The position numbers were made by a program, and so were the translations under genes. A stretch of DNA of 64,000 bases from Burkholderiales bacterium (GTDB lineage Bacteria; Pseudomonadota; Gammaproteobacteria; Burkholderiales; JAEUOS01): the NCBI GenBank assembly GCA_947473125.1, contig CANJDH010000016.1:1-64000 (forward strand), written 5' to 3'. Below the pieces are notes generated by a model that was given only the letters and a program-made list of their open reading frames with translations, made no database searches and had not been told where the DNA came from. Of this stretch, positions 54,479 through 61,884 are shown piece after piece; position 1 is the first letter of the stretch, and each line of letters begins with the position of its first letter.

Positions 54479-57352
54479 TTAGGCAATGGCAGCCAAGGCG
54501 CTCTTGCCGCCGCCGTAGCTCGACAAGGGCGTGAGTGTGCCCCCCTTGGCAATGCGCACCGCACAGTACTTGAATTCAGGAATCTTGCCGACCGGGTCAA
54601 GTGCCGGATTGGTCAGCATGTTGGCCGCCGCCTCGTAGTACGCAAACGGGATGAATACCGCCCCGACCGGCGTGGATTCGTCGGCACGCGCTGCGAGAGA
54701 CACCCGGCCGCGGCGCGATTCGACCGTGACCACGTCGCCCGGCTTGAGGTGCATTTTCGCCAGATCGAGCGGATGCAGCGCGGCCGTGGCGAACGGTTCG
54801 ATACGGTCCAGCACCGTGGCACGACGCGTCATGGAGCCGGTATGCCAGTGCTCCAGTTGCCGACCCGTAATGAGGACAAACGGGAATTCGCGATCCGGCC
54901 GCTCATTGGCCGGGATGATGTCGGCCGGCACCAGCTTGGCGCGGCCGGTTTCACGCGGGAAATTTTTCGTGAACACCACCGGAGTGCCGGGATCGCCCTC
55001 CTGCTCGCAAGGATAGGTGACGCTCGACTCGGCCACCAGCCGTTCCCAGGTGATGCCGGCAATTGACGGCATGGCACGGCGCATCTCGTCGAACACCTGC
55101 GCCACACCGCTCTCTTCGCCCTGATAGTTCCATCCGCAGCCCATGCGATGCGCGATTTGCTGGATGATCCACAAGTCCTGCTTCGCATCCCCCGGCGCAT
55201 CGAGCGCACGCCGCCCGAGTTGCACCATGCGGTCGGTGTTGGTGACGGTACCGGTTTTCTCCGGCCATGCCGAAGCGGGCAACACGACGTCGGCAAGATA
55301 CGCCGTTTCCGTCATGAAAATATCCTGCACGACCAGACATTCGAGTGATGCCATTGCCTCGCGCGCATGCTGCAGGTCGGGGTCCGACATCGCCGGGTTT
55401 TCCCCTTCGACATACATGCCGCGAATTTTTTGCGGGTCGGTGTCGGGGGCCAGCGCCTTGTGCATGATCTCCACCACCGTCAGGCCGGGCTTTGTGTCGA
55501 GCGGCCTGCCCCAGAGTTTCTCGAAACGGGCGTGCGCCTTGGCGTTATCGACACGCTGGTAATCCGGAAACATCATCGGAATCAAGCCGGCGTCGGACGC
55601 ACCCTGTACGTTGTTCTGGCCGCGCAGTGGGTGCAGGCCGGTACCGGGCCGGCCGATCTGGCCGGTGATCATGGAGAGCGCGATCAGGCAACGCGCATTG
55701 TCGGTGCCGTGCACATGCTGCGACACGCCCATGCCCCACAGAATCATGGACCCCTTGGAGGTAGCGTACGCGCGCGCCACTTCGCGTATGGTCTCGGCCG
55801 GTATGCCGCAGACCGGTTCCATCGCTTCGGGGCTGTAGCCCTTGACGTTGTCACGAATCGCCTCATAACCGCTGGTGCGCTCGGCAATGAACTTCTTGTC
55901 GACCAGGCCTTCGGCGACGATCACGTGCATGATCGCGTTGAGCAGCGCCACGTCGGTGTCGGCCTTGAACTGCAGGTAGCGCCACGCCAGCCGATGCAGA
56001 TCGTTCTTGCGCGGGTCGGCGACGATCAGCTTGGTGCCGTTCCTGACGGCATTCTTCATCCAGGTGGCCGCCACCGGATGGTTCGAGGTCGGGTTGGCGC
56101 CGATCACCAGCACCACTTCGGCATTGATCACGTCGGACACCTGGTTCGATACCGCCCCCGAGCCGATACCTTCGAGCAGCGCGGCGACCGACGACGCATG
56201 GCACAAGCGCGTGCAATGGTCGACATTGTTGCTGCCGAAGCCGGTGCGCACCAGTTTCTGGAACAGGTAGGCCTCTTCATTGGTGCCCTTGGCCGACCCG
56301 AACCCGGCGAGTGCCTGCTTGCCACGGATGTCGCGGATAGCCCGGAGCTTGCCGGCGGCGTAGTCAAGCGCTTCGTCCCAGGTCGCCTCCCGGAATATGT
56401 CGGACAGCTTGCCCGGGTCCATCACAAAGTCGCCGCTCTTGGGCGCGCCCTCGCGCCGGATCAGCGGTTTGGTCAGGCGCTGCTTGTGGTGCACATAGTC
56501 AAAGCCATAGCGCCCCTTCACGCACAACCTGCCGTGGTTGGCCGGGCCGTCACGTCCCTCCACATGGAGGATCTTGTTGTCCTTGATGTTGTAGGTGAGC
56601 TGGCAGCCGACGCCGCAATACGGACACACCGAGTCGACCTTCTTGTCGATCACCGACATGCCGACGTTGCGCGCCGGCATCAGGGCCCCGGTCGGGCAGG
56701 CCTGCACGCATTCGCCGCAGGCGACGCAGGTGGATTCGCCCATCGGGTCGTCGAGGTCAAACACGATCTTCGAGTGGTCACCGCGCATCGCGTAGCCGAT
56801 CACATCATTGACCTGGCTCTCGCGACAGGCGCGCACACAGCGCGTGCACTGGATGCAGGCATCGAGGTTGACGGCGATGGCGGGATGGGAAAGGTCGGCC
56901 ATCGAGGAATTGGCGCGAGACCCGAGCGAGCCATCAGGCTTGCGAGCCTTGGTCACCAACGGTTTCCGGGCCTTTACCTGCATCTTTTGGGCCCACATAT
57001 CGAGCTCGGAGTCGGGCCTGAACTGCTGGTCGGGCATGTCCGACAACAACAGCTCGAGCACCATTTTTTGCGACTTCTCGGCGCGCTCCGAGTTGCTCGT
57101 CACGTCCATGCCCGATGTGGCGGCACGGCAGCACGACGGCGCCAGGACGCGTTCGCCCTTGACCTCAACGACGCACGCGCGGCAGTTACCGTCGGCGCGC
57201 AGGCCCTCCTTGTAGCAAAGGTGCGGGATCGCCACGCCGGCGCGCGTGGCCGCGTTGAGAATCGATTCGCCGTCAAACGCCTCGACGGACTTGCCGTTGA
57301 GCGTGAATTCAATCACTTCCTGCGGAACTTCCAGTTTGTTCGGTGCGTTCAT
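54479..57352 (-). CDS. fdsA: NAD-dependent formate dehydrogenase, Mo/W alpha subunit (Fdh1A/FdsA type)
   Basis: A 957-residue soluble catalytic subunit. In order: plant-type [2Fe-2S] (Cys46, 57, 60, 74), two [4Fe-4S] sites (CIQCTRCVRAC at 166-176, CVACGECVQACP at 209-220), the [4Fe-4S] of the Mo domain (Cys243, 246, 250, 277) and the bis-MGD domain with the metal-ligand Cys384 next to His385 in CTRLCHAS. The ligand is Cys, not selenocysteine. It oxidises formate to CO2. The start is 2 nt after the beta-subunit stop. Whether the metal is Mo or W is not visible. Confidence 0.95.
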   Translation of the reverse strand: MNAPNKLEVPQEVIEFTLNGKSVEAFDGESILNAATRAGVAIPHLCYKEGLRADGNCRACVVEVKGERVLAPSCCRAATSGMDVTSNSERAEKSQKMVLELLLSDMPDQQFRPDSELDMWAQKMQVKARKPLVTKARKPDGSLGSRANSSMADLSHPAIAVNLDACIQCTRCVRACRESQVNDVIGYAMRGDHSKIVFDLDDPMGESTCVACGECVQACPTGALMPARNVGMSVIDKKVDSVCPYCGVGCQLTYNIKDNKILHVEGRDGPANHGRLCVKGRYGFDYVHHKQRLTKPLIRREGAPKSGDFVMDPGKLSDIFREATWDEALDYAAGKLRAIRDIRGKQALAGFGSAKGTNEEAYLFQKLVRTGFGSNNVDHCTRLCHASSVAALLEGIGSGAVSNQVSDVINAEVVLVIGANPTSNHPVAATWMKNAVRNGTKLIVADPRKNDLHRLAWRYLQFKADTDVALLNAIMHVIVAEGLVDKKFIAERTSGYEAIRDNVKGYSPEAMEPVCGIPAETIREVARAYATSKGSMILWGMGVSQHVHGTDNARCLIALSMITGQIGRPGTGLHPLRGQNNVQGASDAGLIPMMFPDYQRVDNAKAHARFEKLWGRPLDTKPGLTVVEIMHKALAPDTDPQKIRGMYVEGENPAMSDPDLQHAREAMASLECLVVQDIFMTETAYLADVVLPASAWPEKTGTVTNTDRMVQLGRRALDAPGDAKQDLWIIQQIAHRMGCGWNYQGEESGVAQVFDEMRRAMPSIAGITWERLVAESSVTYPCEQEGDPGTPVVFTKNFPRETGRAKLVPADIIPANERPDREFPFVLITGRQLEHWHTGSMTRRATVLDRIEPFATAALHPLDLAKMHLKPGDVVTVESRRGRVSLAARADESTPVGAVFIPFAYYEAAANMLTNPALDPVGKIPEFKYCAVRIAKGGTLTPLSSYGGGKSALAAIA

Positions 57353-57354
57353 GA

Positions 57355-59124
57355 TCAGACCTCGTGCGGGAAGTATTTGGCAATGCAGCGAATCGGGTTG
57401 GGTGCGGCCTGCCCGAGTCCGCAAATGGACGCATCACCCATCACCACGCTGAGGTCCTCGAGCGTCTCGTGGTCCCAGTGCTGCGCCTCCATCAATAGCG
57501 CCGCCTTGGCGGTGCCGACCCGGCAGGGCGTGCACTGCCCGCAGGACTCATGCTTGAAAAAATTCATCATGTTGCGTGCGGCATCGCGCGCCTTGTCGCG
57601 ATCCGACAGGATCATCACTGCAGCCGAGCCGATGAAGCAACCGTAGGGTTGCAGCGTGTCGAAATCAAGGGGCACGTCGCCGAGCGCTGCCGGCAGGATG
57701 CCGCCGGATGCACCGCCGGGCAGGTAGGCATAAAACGCATGGCCGGCTTGCATGCCGCCGCAGTATTCGTCAATCAGCTGGCGCACCGTGATGCCGGCCG
57801 GCGCCAGGTGCACGCCGGGCCGGTTGACCCGGCCGGATACGGAAAACGAGCGCAGCCCCTTGCGGCCGTTGCGCCCGAAGGACGCAAACCAATCGGGGCC
57901 GCGCTCCAGGATGTCGCGCACCCAATAAAGTGTTTCGAAGTTGTGTTCGAGCGTCGGGTAGCCAAACAGGCCCACCTGCGCCACGTAGGGCGGACGCAGG
58001 CGCGGCTCGCCGCGCTTGCCTTCGATCGACTCGATCATCGCCGACTCTTCGCCGCAAATGTAGGCCCCGGCGCCGCGCCGCAATTCGATGCTCGGCAAGG
58101 CACACGGCGGGTCCGCCTGCAACTTCGCCAGTTCCTTTTCGAGGATGGCGCGACAGCCGTGATATTCGTCGCGCAGGTAAATGTAGACGCTGCCCACGCC
58201 GACCGTCCACGCGGCGACGATCATGCCTTCGAGGAAACGGTGCGGATCGCGCTCGAGGTAGGTGCGATCCTTGAAGGTGCCCGGCTCCCCTTCGTCGATG
58301 TTGACGGCCATCACTTTCGGACCCGCCTCGGCACGCACAATGCGCCATTTGCGCCCGGTCGGGAAACCCGCACCGCCGAGCCCGCGCAAGCCCGAATGCT
58401 CCATTTTGGCGATCAACGCCTCGGCGTCGTGTCCGCCGGCAAGACAGCCTGCCGCAAGCGCATACCCGCCTGCCTTGCGGTAGGCGGCGTAGCCGGTGTA
58501 GCCGGGTGTGACGTCAAGCACCACACCCGGGCTCTTGCGCGCATCGACCATCAGCGCCGGGTCAAACAGGGTCTTGTCCTGCGCCTGGGGGTGGCGCACG
58601 TCTTTTTCGCGCACCAACCGCGCGATCTTTTCGCCGGTGGCACACGCCACTGCGTGTTGGCCGACTGCTGCAGCCGGGGCCTGCTCGCAACGGCCGATGC
58701 ACGGGGCTGGAATCACTCGTACATCCTTGCCGAGCAGGGTTGGCAGGCGTTTGAGCAAATCCTTGGCGCCGGCCATCTCGCAAGACAGCGAGTCGCAAAC
58801 CCGTACCGTGATCGCCGGCGGCGCCTCGCCGCCGGCCTTGACGATGTCGAAGTGGTGGTAAAAGGTCGCTACCTCGTAGACCTCGGTCATCGACAGCCTC
58901 ATCTCGCGCGCCAGCGCCACCAGATGCCGGTCGGCGAGGTGGCCGAACCCATCCTGCAGCTTGTGCAGGTGTTCGATCAGCAAGTCGCGACGGCGCGGCG
59001 CATCGCCCAGCAATTTGCGCACTTCGGCGATCGACTGCTCGTCGGCCTGGCGCCCTTTGGGCTGGGTTTTGAGTCGAATCTGGTGTTCGACTGCTTGCAG
59101 GGGAATCAGGTGTGAACTGCCCAT
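57355..59124 (-). CDS. fdsB: Formate dehydrogenase beta subunit, NuoE-NuoF fusion (Fdh1B type)
   Basis: A 589-residue diaphorase subunit. Residues about 25-180 are a NuoE/FdsG domain with [2Fe-2S] ligands Cys110, 115, 142 and 146; residues about 200-585 are a NuoF/FdsB domain with FMN/NAD loops (GLRGLGGAGFPTGRKW, GAGAYICGEESA) and [4Fe-4S] ligands in ESCGQCTPC and ICGLG. A fused NuoE-NuoF subunit is the arrangement of Methylobacterium Fdh1B, not of Cupriavidus Fds, where they are separate. It passes electrons from the alpha subunit to NAD+. Confidence 0.95.
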   Translation of the reverse strand: MGSSHLIPLQAVEHQIRLKTQPKGRQADEQSIAEVRKLLGDAPRRRDLLIEHLHKLQDGFGHLADRHLVALAREMRLSMTEVYEVATFYHHFDIVKAGGEAPPAITVRVCDSLSCEMAGAKDLLKRLPTLLGKDVRVIPAPCIGRCEQAPAAAVGQHAVACATGEKIARLVREKDVRHPQAQDKTLFDPALMVDARKSPGVVLDVTPGYTGYAAYRKAGGYALAAGCLAGGHDAEALIAKMEHSGLRGLGGAGFPTGRKWRIVRAEAGPKVMAVNIDEGEPGTFKDRTYLERDPHRFLEGMIVAAWTVGVGSVYIYLRDEYHGCRAILEKELAKLQADPPCALPSIELRRGAGAYICGEESAMIESIEGKRGEPRLRPPYVAQVGLFGYPTLEHNFETLYWVRDILERGPDWFASFGRNGRKGLRSFSVSGRVNRPGVHLAPAGITVRQLIDEYCGGMQAGHAFYAYLPGGASGGILPAALGDVPLDFDTLQPYGCFIGSAAVMILSDRDKARDAARNMMNFFKHESCGQCTPCRVGTAKAALLMEAQHWDHETLEDLSVVMGDASICGLGQAAPNPIRCIAKYFPHEV

Positions 59125-59223: not shown

Positions 59224-59276
59224 GTCAATGCAGCATTGACTCAGGTCAAAACGGGCCCCGTGGAATTGACTTGGCT
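59224..59276. promoter_or_regulatory. Putative operator region upstream of formate dehydrogenase
   Basis: A perfect palindrome GTCAATGC-A-GCATTGAC (59224-59240) overlaps TTGACTCAGG (59236-59245), then GTCAAAAC and AATTGACTTGGCTCAA. It is 100-150 nt upstream of the dehydrogenase start, at the distance usual for an activator site. The 10-mer TTGACTCAGG is identical in the fhs leader. Confidence 0.55.
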
Positions 59277-59295: not shown

Positions 59296-61884
59296 TCAAA
59301 ATTTGATGGGCGGAAACAGGTCGTCCAGCGGCGCTTCATCCTCAAGCGGCTGCGACTCGAATCCGCCGGAAATTTCGACGGTCTTGTCGAAATCTTCAGG
59401 GGGCTTCACCCGGGCACGTACGATGCCGGAGGCCATTGACGCGGCGCGCACCGGCGCACTTGCTGCGGAAACGGGGGGGTAAAGCTCCTCGGTGAATTTT
59501 CCGTCCTTGTCGCTGGAACGATCAAACCCCCCGGACAGGATCATGGTTTTGTCCGGGTCAAAATTGGCTACTGACGCAGGTGCAACCGGGGTTGGCGCGG
59601 CCGCCACCGGGAGCGCCATCAGCTCGGCGGCATCGAAGGCAACCGTCGCGGCGTAATCCGTGATGCCCGCAGCCTGCGCTTTCGCCGCCGCCGGGACGGT
59701 GCTGCGAACTGCAGGGGCCGCCGGCGCTTGGGGCAAGTCGAAATCGGATGCGTCGAACGGGTTGGTCCCGGCGTAGCTGGGCGCCATCTCCGAGGTCGCC
59801 ATTCCCGCCTGGTCAAGGTCAAACGCGGGCAGGTGGATCTCCGGCTCGGGAGCCACCTCCTCCATGGGCGGATCGAAGGCCGTCGTACCGGCGAAATCCG
59901 GCGCCATTTCCGATGTGGCCGAGCCCTGATGCACGTCAAAATCGGGCGCAAGTTCGGACGGCACGGCAACCGGAGCGGCATCCTGTGCGTCAGGCATGGC
60001 GCTGGTCGACATGAAATTGGGCGCCATTTCGCTGGTCGCAAACGCCGTGGTGGCGTTGAAACGGGGCGCCATTTCAGTGGTCAGCATGGCATCCTCACGC
60101 GGCTCGCCTGGGGTCTTTTCCTCGGCAGGTGCGGACAGTGCAGGCTCTTCGTCAGGAAGCAACGGCACGTCGGTGAATTCGGTGGTCTCGCTCGAGTTGA
60201 GGTGAAACGCCTGCGGCGCAGGGACCGGTGCGCGGCCCATTACCAGCTGCGCGATGGTTGCAGCGGCCGCCGCCGGCATGGGCTGCACCACCACCGTGGT
60301 GGGACGTGCCTGTGCCGGCGCGGCTGGCGTGACCGGCATCTGCGACACCGACGTTGCCGGGGCAGGACCTTCGGGCTCGGGTACGGCAGCCGCCACTGCG
60401 GCAAACGCGCCCCAGCCCAGCGAATTGGCCACCGGCACGGCTACTCCGGTCGCATCGTTGGCGACTTCGGGCACCTCTTCGTCGTCCGGTGCCGGATGGA
60501 TCGCCAGCGGGCTGACGCGCTTGGCCAGCAGCATCGCCGCGCGCATGTTCTTGAGCATGGCGTCGGTGGCCAGCCGGCGTATCTCGCCCGCCAGCTCCTC
60601 GGTGGCAAACGCAAATGCGGCCTGGTTGACCTCAAGAAAAACCACCCGCGTCAGGGCCGTCGCACTCAAGTCTCGCGTGGAGCCCTCGCTATCGAGCCAT
60701 TCCATCACGCCCAGCAGGTCGCCCCGCCCGGCCTTGTCGATGGCGTGCCGGCCTTTTTCGATTTCCAGCTCGCCTTCCAGGACAAAGCCGAATGATTTGC
60801 CCTCTTCCCCCTCGCGCATGAGCACGGTGGCAGGCGCCAGCTCGCGCCAGTGCGACAAGCGCAGCAACTCCCAAATATCGGTGTCATCCAGCTGGCCCAG
60901 AATCGGCAGGCCACGAATCGCCTTCCAGCGCACCTCATTGGGCACCACCTGGTCTTCCTCGAGGATCTGGTAACGCACCGCCGACAGGTCCTTGGCCATG
61001 TCGGAGCCGAGCCGGTAGCGCGAGTACAGGTCTTTCTCCATCGCCTTGGCGATGACCTTGTTGGTCAGTTCGGGAATGTCCGGATTGAGCTGGGTGACCG
61101 GCACCGCCTCCATATTGACGATCTTGTAGATCAGGGAGGCCGTGTTGGTGGCACGAAACGGCAGGCGCCCGGTCAACAACTGGTAGAACATCACGCCGAG
61201 CGAATACAGGTCGGTCTGGTGGTTCAGCGTGTAGCCCTTGATCTGCTCCGGGCTCATGTAGGAGGGCGAACCGAGGCCGTTGATGAAGGTCGAATCGACG
61301 TTGACGTTCTTCTTGATGTTGAGCGCAAGGCCGAAATCCATCACCTTGACTTCGTCGTCCTTCAGAAGCATCACGTTGGCGGGCTTGATGTCGCGGTTCA
61401 CGATGCCGCGCCGGTGCGCATAATCGAGCGCCATCGCCACCTTGAAAATGATGCCGACCGTGCGGTGCATCGGCAGCAGCTTGTCCATGGTGATGAACTG
61501 GTCCAGCGTATCGCCGTCGAGATACTCCATCACCAGGTAGGCGCGGTTTTCCTCGACCTTCCAGTCAAACACCCTGGTGATGTTGGGGTGGTCAAACTGG
61601 CTCGACACGGCAGCTTCGGTCGCAAACAGCTTGCGGAACCGGCGCGCCAGCTTGCTGCCGTCATCGGTAAAGTCCACCAGCTTGACGGCCACCCGCGCCG
61701 GTTTGAGAGCGTCGTCACTCCAGTTCAGGTTCGGAAACGGGTTTTCCGGGGTGGCTTCCTCGACGCTGGTGCGGCCTTCGACCATTTCTTCGGCCAGGTA
61801 CACGACCGAGGTCGCCCCGCGGCCGATTTCGCGTACCGCCCGGTATTTTCCAAACTCCGGAAGTGTGTCCTTGCCAGCGTCCAT
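59296..61884 (-). CDS. Ser/Thr protein kinase with cyclic-nucleotide-type domain and repeat-rich tail
   Basis: An 862-residue cytoplasmic kinase. Kinase domain (14-310): glycine loop GRGATSVVY, Lys68 in VAVK, DFG at 183-185, SPE at 211-213. The catalytic HRD reads NRD (Asn163, Asp165 kept), and about 38 extra residues lie between glycine loop and Lys68. A cyclic-nucleotide-binding-like domain follows (about 325-440), then an Ala/Pro-rich tail with five copies of a [TS]-SEMAP-xF unit (602-710) and a doubled C-terminal module (DKTMILSGGF 778-787; DKTVEISGGF 833-842), each followed by an acidic L[YF]PP[VI]. No membrane segment. It is upstream of formate dehydrogenase on the same strand. Confidence 0.9.
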   Translation of the reverse strand: MDAGKDTLPEFGKYRAVREIGRGATSVVYLAEEMVEGRTSVEEATPENPFPNLNWSDDALKPARVAVKLVDFTDDGSKLARRFRKLFATEAAVSSQFDHPNITRVFDWKVEENRAYLVMEYLDGDTLDQFITMDKLLPMHRTVGIIFKVAMALDYAHRRGIVNRDIKPANVMLLKDDEVKVMDFGLALNIKKNVNVDSTFINGLGSPSYMSPEQIKGYTLNHQTDLYSLGVMFYQLLTGRLPFRATNTASLIYKIVNMEAVPVTQLNPDIPELTNKVIAKAMEKDLYSRYRLGSDMAKDLSAVRYQILEEDQVVPNEVRWKAIRGLPILGQLDDTDIWELLRLSHWRELAPATVLMREGEEGKSFGFVLEGELEIEKGRHAIDKAGRGDLLGVMEWLDSEGSTRDLSATALTRVVFLEVNQAAFAFATEELAGEIRRLATDAMLKNMRAAMLLAKRVSPLAIHPAPDDEEVPEVANDATGVAVPVANSLGWGAFAAVAAAVPEPEGPAPATSVSQMPVTPAAPAQARPTTVVVQPMPAAAAATIAQLVMGRAPVPAPQAFHLNSSETTEFTDVPLLPDEEPALSAPAEEKTPGEPREDAMLTTEMAPRFNATTAFATSEMAPNFMSTSAMPDAQDAAPVAVPSELAPDFDVHQGSATSEMAPDFAGTTAFDPPMEEVAPEPEIHLPAFDLDQAGMATSEMAPSYAGTNPFDASDFDLPQAPAAPAVRSTVPAAAKAQAAGITDYAATVAFDAAELMALPVAAAPTPVAPASVANFDPDKTMILSGGFDRSSDKDGKFTEELYPPVSAASAPVRAASMASGIVRARVKPPEDFDKTVEISGGFESQPLEDEAPLDDLFPPIKF
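59755..60081 (-). repeat. Five SEMAP-type repeats in the kinase tail
   Basis: Codons 602-710 encode TTEMAPRFNATTAF, TSEMAPNFMSTSAM, PSELAPDFDVHQG, TSEMAPDFAGTTAF and TSEMAPSYAGTNPF, with uneven spacers. A decayed sixth copy may end in ATVAF at residue 750. The Thr residues and the shared SEMAP core look like protein-interaction or phospho-acceptor sites. Confidence 0.85.

Follow-up and report, generated by a model that had tools for sequence, protein, structure and literature searches.

FHA domains require phosphothreonine, with pTxx[I/L/V] a listed FHA-ligand motif (PMC8786283), and bacterial pairings of such domains with Ser/Thr kinases have been described. In the PpkA-Fha system of type VI secretion, known from Acidovorax citrulli and Pseudomonas aeruginosa, a kinase-dependent scaffold forms condensates; PpkA is described there as a membrane kinase that phosphorylates a threonine of Fha, with no mention of a cyclic-nucleotide-binding (cNMP) domain or a tail array (PMC12607579). 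Rv1747 of Mycobacterium tuberculosis, the partner of PknF, combines FHA domains with a disordered linker and undergoes kinase-driven phase separation that a phosphatase reverses (PMC9312465). GarA/OdhI, which works with PknB/PknG, is a kinase-controlled FHA protein acting as the regulator of a dehydrogenase of central metabolism (PMC9769921).

The kinase gene described here lies in a window (the whole stretch of DNA analysed, 64,000 nucleotides of contig CANJDH010000016.1) from an uncultured member of the Burkholderiales. Like PpkA-Fha, the system would pair a Hanks-type kinase with an FHA partner in a proteobacterium, but the gene stands among fds, fhs and TRAP genes and not in a type VI secretion cluster. 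In the Rv1747/PknF pair the FHA domains belong to the substrate, an ABC transporter, whereas here it is the kinase that carries the candidate sites, and separate proteins would have to read them. The GarA/OdhI switch, unlike the window kinase, is actinobacterial; its phospho-site lies within the FHA protein itself and not in an array carried by the kinase. We know of no link between GarA/OdhI and Fds, and to our knowledge neither PpkA-Fha nor Rv1747 combines a kinase, a cNMP domain and a tail array.

The encoded protein is, by sequence, a Hanks-type Ser/Thr kinase with predicted activity: besides the Pkinase match it has the catalytic Lys68 and Glu90, Asp165, the DFG Asp183 and the activation-loop Thr199, all invariant in the alignment with its orthologues, but HRD is replaced by NRD in this copy (Table 1). 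It is not of the PASTA/PknB type, since NF033483 scores 244.6 against a cut-off of 450 and covers the kinase part only, and the Pfam matches include no PASTA domain. The chain contains no FHA domain, and a Pfam search finds no domain match in the last 430 residues. Composition suggests that the tail is disordered; an AlphaFold2 model built on a four-sequence alignment (mean pLDDT 34.7) left the kinase domain unresolved as well and is uninformative on this point. The proposal of the sequence-only reading that a kinase, a cNMP domain and repeated acceptor-like threonines share one chain is borne out by Pfam and by the tail statistics given below.

Table 1 Features of the kinase gene and its fds neighbours (positions in the window)
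Feature	Position	Strand	Basis or remark
Whole kinase gene	59296..61884	-	ORF, Pfam, orthologues; 862-aa Ser/Thr kinase, cNMP-binding domain, repeat tail
Protein kinase domain	61015..61695	-	Pfam Pkinase aa 64-290, 7.6e-44; domain start ~aa 12
Catalytic loop NRD, aa 163-165	61390..61398	-	Alignment; HRD in orthologues
Cyclic-nucleotide-binding domain, aa 347-425	60610..60846	-	PF00027 cNMP_binding 3.2e-11; altered phosphate-binding cassette
A/P-rich acidic repeat tail, aa 461-862 (~400 aa)	59299..60504	-	15 Thr with hydrophobic +3
Repeat unit 1, TTEMAPRFN, aa 602-610	60055..60081	-	
Repeat unit 2, TSEMAPNF, aa 617-624	60013..60036	-	
Repeat unit 3, PSELAPDF, aa 642-649	59938..59961	-	Without Thr
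Repeat unit 4, TSEMAPDF, aa 657-664	59893..59916	-	
Repeat unit 5, TSEMAPSY, aa 697-704	59773..59796	-	
DKT module 1, DKTMILSGGF, aa 778-787	59524..59553	-	
Acidic EELYPPV after module 1, aa 799-805	59470..59490	-	
DKT module 2, DKTVEISGGF, aa 833-842	59359..59388	-	
Acidic DLFPPI (in DDLFPPI), C-terminus, aa 855-860	59305..59322	-	LFPP invariant in all four aligned proteins
Palindrome TTGAC-N4-GTCAA, between kinase and fds	59236..59249	.	FNR/CRP-type look; same in three other genomes
Fused fdsG-fdsB (NuoE/NuoF-like, one chain)	57355..59124	-	Linked neighbour; synteny
fdsA, formate dehydrogenase alpha	54479..57424	-	TIGR01591 764.9 bits; synteny

The tail contains two kinds of repeat. Five SEMAP-like units are present, as first counted (TEMAP 603, SEMAP 618, SELAP 643, SEMAP 658 and SEMAP 698), but exact SEMAP occurs in only three of them and the third has no preceding threonine. 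The duplicated C-terminal module noticed at the outset is also found, as DKT-x3-SGGF beginning at residues 778 and 833, each copy being followed by the acidic L[YF]PP[VI] stretch claimed for it. There are 10 identical 5-mer pairs, where 5000 shuffles give a mean of 0.6 and at most 8, and 6 identical 6-mer pairs, where the shuffle mean is 0.05. Across the 4.9-Mb genome as a whole, the only two occurrences of the DKT-SGGF DNA pattern are inside this gene. The copies diverge more at synonymous sites (dN/dS about 0.28-0.33 in the cores), so the repeat residues appear to be under protein-level selection and not the product of fresh slippage.

Three orthologues of 989, 891 and 943 residues, from the same family as the window genome, share the architecture at 56-59% overall identity. 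Absence of the repeats from orthologues had been named as grounds for abandoning the sequence-only reading; all three carry them, with SEMAP-type copy numbers across the four proteins of 5, 10, 4 and 6 and a spacing that is often 15 residues or a multiple of it. Kinases with the repeat tail span three genera of uncultured Betaproteobacteria/Burkholderiales, the window's included; a fourth genome of the family (84% complete) gave no match to the kinase, and a scan of the genome contigs found no relatives beyond the same three. Other relatives among 399 genomes of the order are 44-52% identical over the kinase and cNMP domains and have short tails at most. These tail-less homologues (G015, G062, G112, G262 and others) share both domains and lack the array, and are mostly 450-600 residues long; one has an 858-residue open frame whose extra length precedes the kinase. 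LDLELxP-like motifs close the tails of several of them, and two f12 homologues (L013, L015) carry a single SRT[MQ]VL site, from which the DKT module may have arisen. On these grounds the array seems to have expanded in the region separating the cNMP domain from the C-terminus.

SEMAP and DKT units represent two variants of a single motif, T-x-x-hydrophobic. What matters is not SEMAP itself but the preceding threonine and its hydrophobic +3 residue. Across the four tails, 59 of 123 threonines have F, I, L, M or V at +3 (permutations average 21% and stay at or below 35%), a pooled count inflated by duplicated units and by the relatedness of the only four proteins it draws on, as against 24 of 98 serines. 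Taken protein by protein, the effect is significant for threonine in all four (p 0.0002-0.006) and for serine in none. It persists when the SEMAP-type and DKT units are masked (29/72 versus a 20% base; binomial p=7e-5), and among offsets -4 to +6 only +3 is high, all others being at or below 25%. Conservation follows the same rule: 8 of 28 tail threonines but 0 of 26 tail serines of the window protein are invariant (approximately p=0.003, one-sided, by hand from the counts), and seven of the eight invariant threonines have a hydrophobic +3 residue.

These observations bear on the proposal that the tail has no role and is just a passive, low-complexity linker that repeat duplication has lengthened. 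Its A/P-rich composition, its variable length and copy number and the existence of tail-less homologues would suit such a linker, but a threonine-specific rule with invariant threonines, synonymous divergence between copies whose residues are conserved, and retention of the tail in three genera make the proposal very improbable.

We instead favour, at about an even chance, a kinase whose autophosphorylated, multivalent tail serves as a scaffold for docking FHA proteins. The Hanks-type kinase, or a sister kinase, would phosphorylate threonines in the long tail, turning it into a string of some 10-15 phosphothreonine docking sites of the form T-x-x-hydrophobic; stand-alone FHA-domain proteins would bind these sites, how far the scaffold is occupied would follow from the activities of kinase and phosphatase, and the kinase would receive its regulatory input through the cNMP domain. 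I, L or V, the residues of the published motif, stand at +3 of 29% of the tail threonines against a base of 14% (serines, 16%), so that the tails show the threonine-specific I/L/V preference of FHA ligands and contain candidate sites. Methionine is enriched too, and a caveat to this assignment is that the +3 residue is often Met or Phe, outside the published class; in the window copy I, L or V occupies 5 of 15 sites and M or F the remainder.

The +3 preference could also reflect the choice of substrate by the kinase. Under that explanation the tail serves as a sink for autophosphorylation or as an autoregulatory region, the +3 rule is the kinase's own substrate consensus, and multi-site phosphorylation tunes activity without FHA partners. 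The same threonine data fit, and for mycobacterial Ser/Thr kinases flanking acidic residues are described as favourable (PMC6030727, citing Prisic 2010). We nevertheless think this rather unlikely, because the long tails of sister kinases in the genome do not follow the +3 rule and because a close match to the site, DFEKTMVL, sits in an FHA protein. No Thr +3 effect is seen in the tails of two further kinases from the window genome, and the rule does not extend to all kinase tails there, since T-x-I-R repeats occur in L043 and L046 scores 0/46. The L046 kinase (L046:8212-11088, + strand) has two DADATLV repeats and no Thr +3 hydrophobic site at all, a different acceptor dialect.

The docking scaffold calls for readers elsewhere in the genome. 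The notion of a self-contained scaffold is unlikely to hold; because the kinase chain has no FHA domain, FHA readers must be separate proteins, and the window genome (G000, 4.9 Mb, betaproteobacterial) encodes seven FHA proteins. It also has about 23 protein-kinase-like matches; besides the gene described here, three more kinase-cNMP genes are present, and part of another lies where a contig ends. One FHA protein belongs to a cluster with a CHASE2-kinase and a PP2C-like phosphatase, the latter assigned by eye (L038:7488-11992, - strand, contig C77), and directly after its FHA domain carries DFEKTMVLRPG, which closely resembles the DKT module. The orthologue genomes keep this site (L097-L099), and two other families have it as DFEKTMVIRPG and DFEKTMIIRPG. 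The early remark that DKT-type threonines resemble FHA-binding sites accordingly gains from three sides: the Thr-specific +3 rule, the published pTxx[I/L/V] motif and this near-match.

A broader acidic-T pattern, [DE]x[DE][KAR]T[MVTFLEIQY][ILV], occurs in 6 of 26 kinase/FHA proteins versus 0 of 714 sampled others in the window genome (p=1e-9), a post hoc figure, the pattern having been designed on the genome in which it was first counted. Kept fixed and applied to two to three other genomes, it matches 3 of 43 kinase/FHA proteins versus 1 of 313 background proteins (p=0.006), and these matches fall in 3 of 18 FHA proteins and 0 of 25 kinases. A DKT-only marker, D[KR]T[MV]x[LI], was too weak to keep (2/26 versus 1/714).

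Nucleotide cyclase-FHA fusions account for three of the seven FHA proteins; by eye, they have the metal-binding Asp, the Lys and the Asn/Arg of adenylyl cyclases. They invite an extension of the docking scaffold into a closed loop, in which the phosphorylated tail recruits cyclase-FHA fusions that make cAMP beside the kinase's own cNMP domain. Each orthologue genome has one or two such fusions, and among the 399 genomes of the order they occur in 12 of 15 with the kinase family versus 54 of 384 without it (by genus 6/8 versus 26/156, p=0.0008, with shared ancestry uncontrolled). In three families a cyclase-FHA gene and a kinase gene are adjacent (L043 in G000, G008 C1 and G013 C19). The co-occurrence, however, also fits shared ancestry and generally signal-rich genomes, and it is common to the tail-less homologues; a direct link between the window kinase and a cyclase-FHA fusion is absent; and the cNMP domain of the window copy is itself altered. 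Its cassette reads LGVMEWL...RDLSAT where the orthologues have the canonical [VI]GE...R[ST]A, so that the glutamate is lost and RSA has become RDL. Because of this loss the window domain may not bind cyclic nucleotide, and a cNMP input is doubtful for this member. The loop is, in our estimation, quite unlikely. The cassette differences, like NRD in the catalytic loop of a kinase that keeps its catalytic Asp, Lys and DFG, may be a genuine change or an assembly error. At L043, on contig C44 of G000, a kinase (L043:6835-10014, + strand) with five D[PI]DAT[EMLF]I repeats is convergent to a cyclase-FHA gene (L043:10108-11094, - strand) 94 bases away, and the G008 C1 and G013 C19 neighbourhoods are similar.

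As the sequence-only reading had it, the kinase gene precedes fds and shares its strand; fdsGB starts at 59124 and fdsA comes next. The order kinase-fdsGB-fdsA-fhs is kept in four genomes from three genera of one family, among them G004, although its upstream neighbour differs. The linkage to formate dehydrogenase, for which the reading proposed a neighbourhood survey, holds within this family but not beyond it: of five tail-less homologues checked in other families, none lies beside fds. A single kinase-fds operon was not accepted because a conserved palindrome lies between them, which argues for separate transcription of fds. The linkage is real; co-regulation is putative and unproven, because the link is limited to one family and fds has its own palindrome. 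Compatible with the docking scaffold would be a kinase that specifically controls formate dehydrogenase, phosphorylating Fds or an FHA adaptor that binds it, much as GarA/OdhI acts on 2-oxoglutarate dehydrogenase. The gene order in four genomes, retained in G004 next to a different upstream neighbour, speaks for it; yet the linkage is absent in other families, the palindrome ahead of fds is conserved, and gene order in close relatives persists by descent, and we regard such control as unlikely. A literature search, which covered few subscription journals, found no paper joining a cNMP domain, a Ser/Thr kinase and formate dehydrogenase in betaproteobacteria.

The FHA systems compared here use one or few sites, whereas the tail of the window kinase itself offers 10-15 candidates; if the docking scaffold is correct, it would be multivalent and switched by the kinase. 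The rule behind it (Thr, not Ser, with a hydrophobic residue at +3) is a simple one for finding further such tails, and it allows the FHA-fused adenylyl cyclases of Burkholderiales and the cNMP-kinases of that order to be considered together in a single testable scheme. Should the closed loop also prove true, these bacteria would have a self-amplifying circuit that joins phosphothreonine scaffolding to cyclic-nucleotide signalling, encoded beside formate metabolism.
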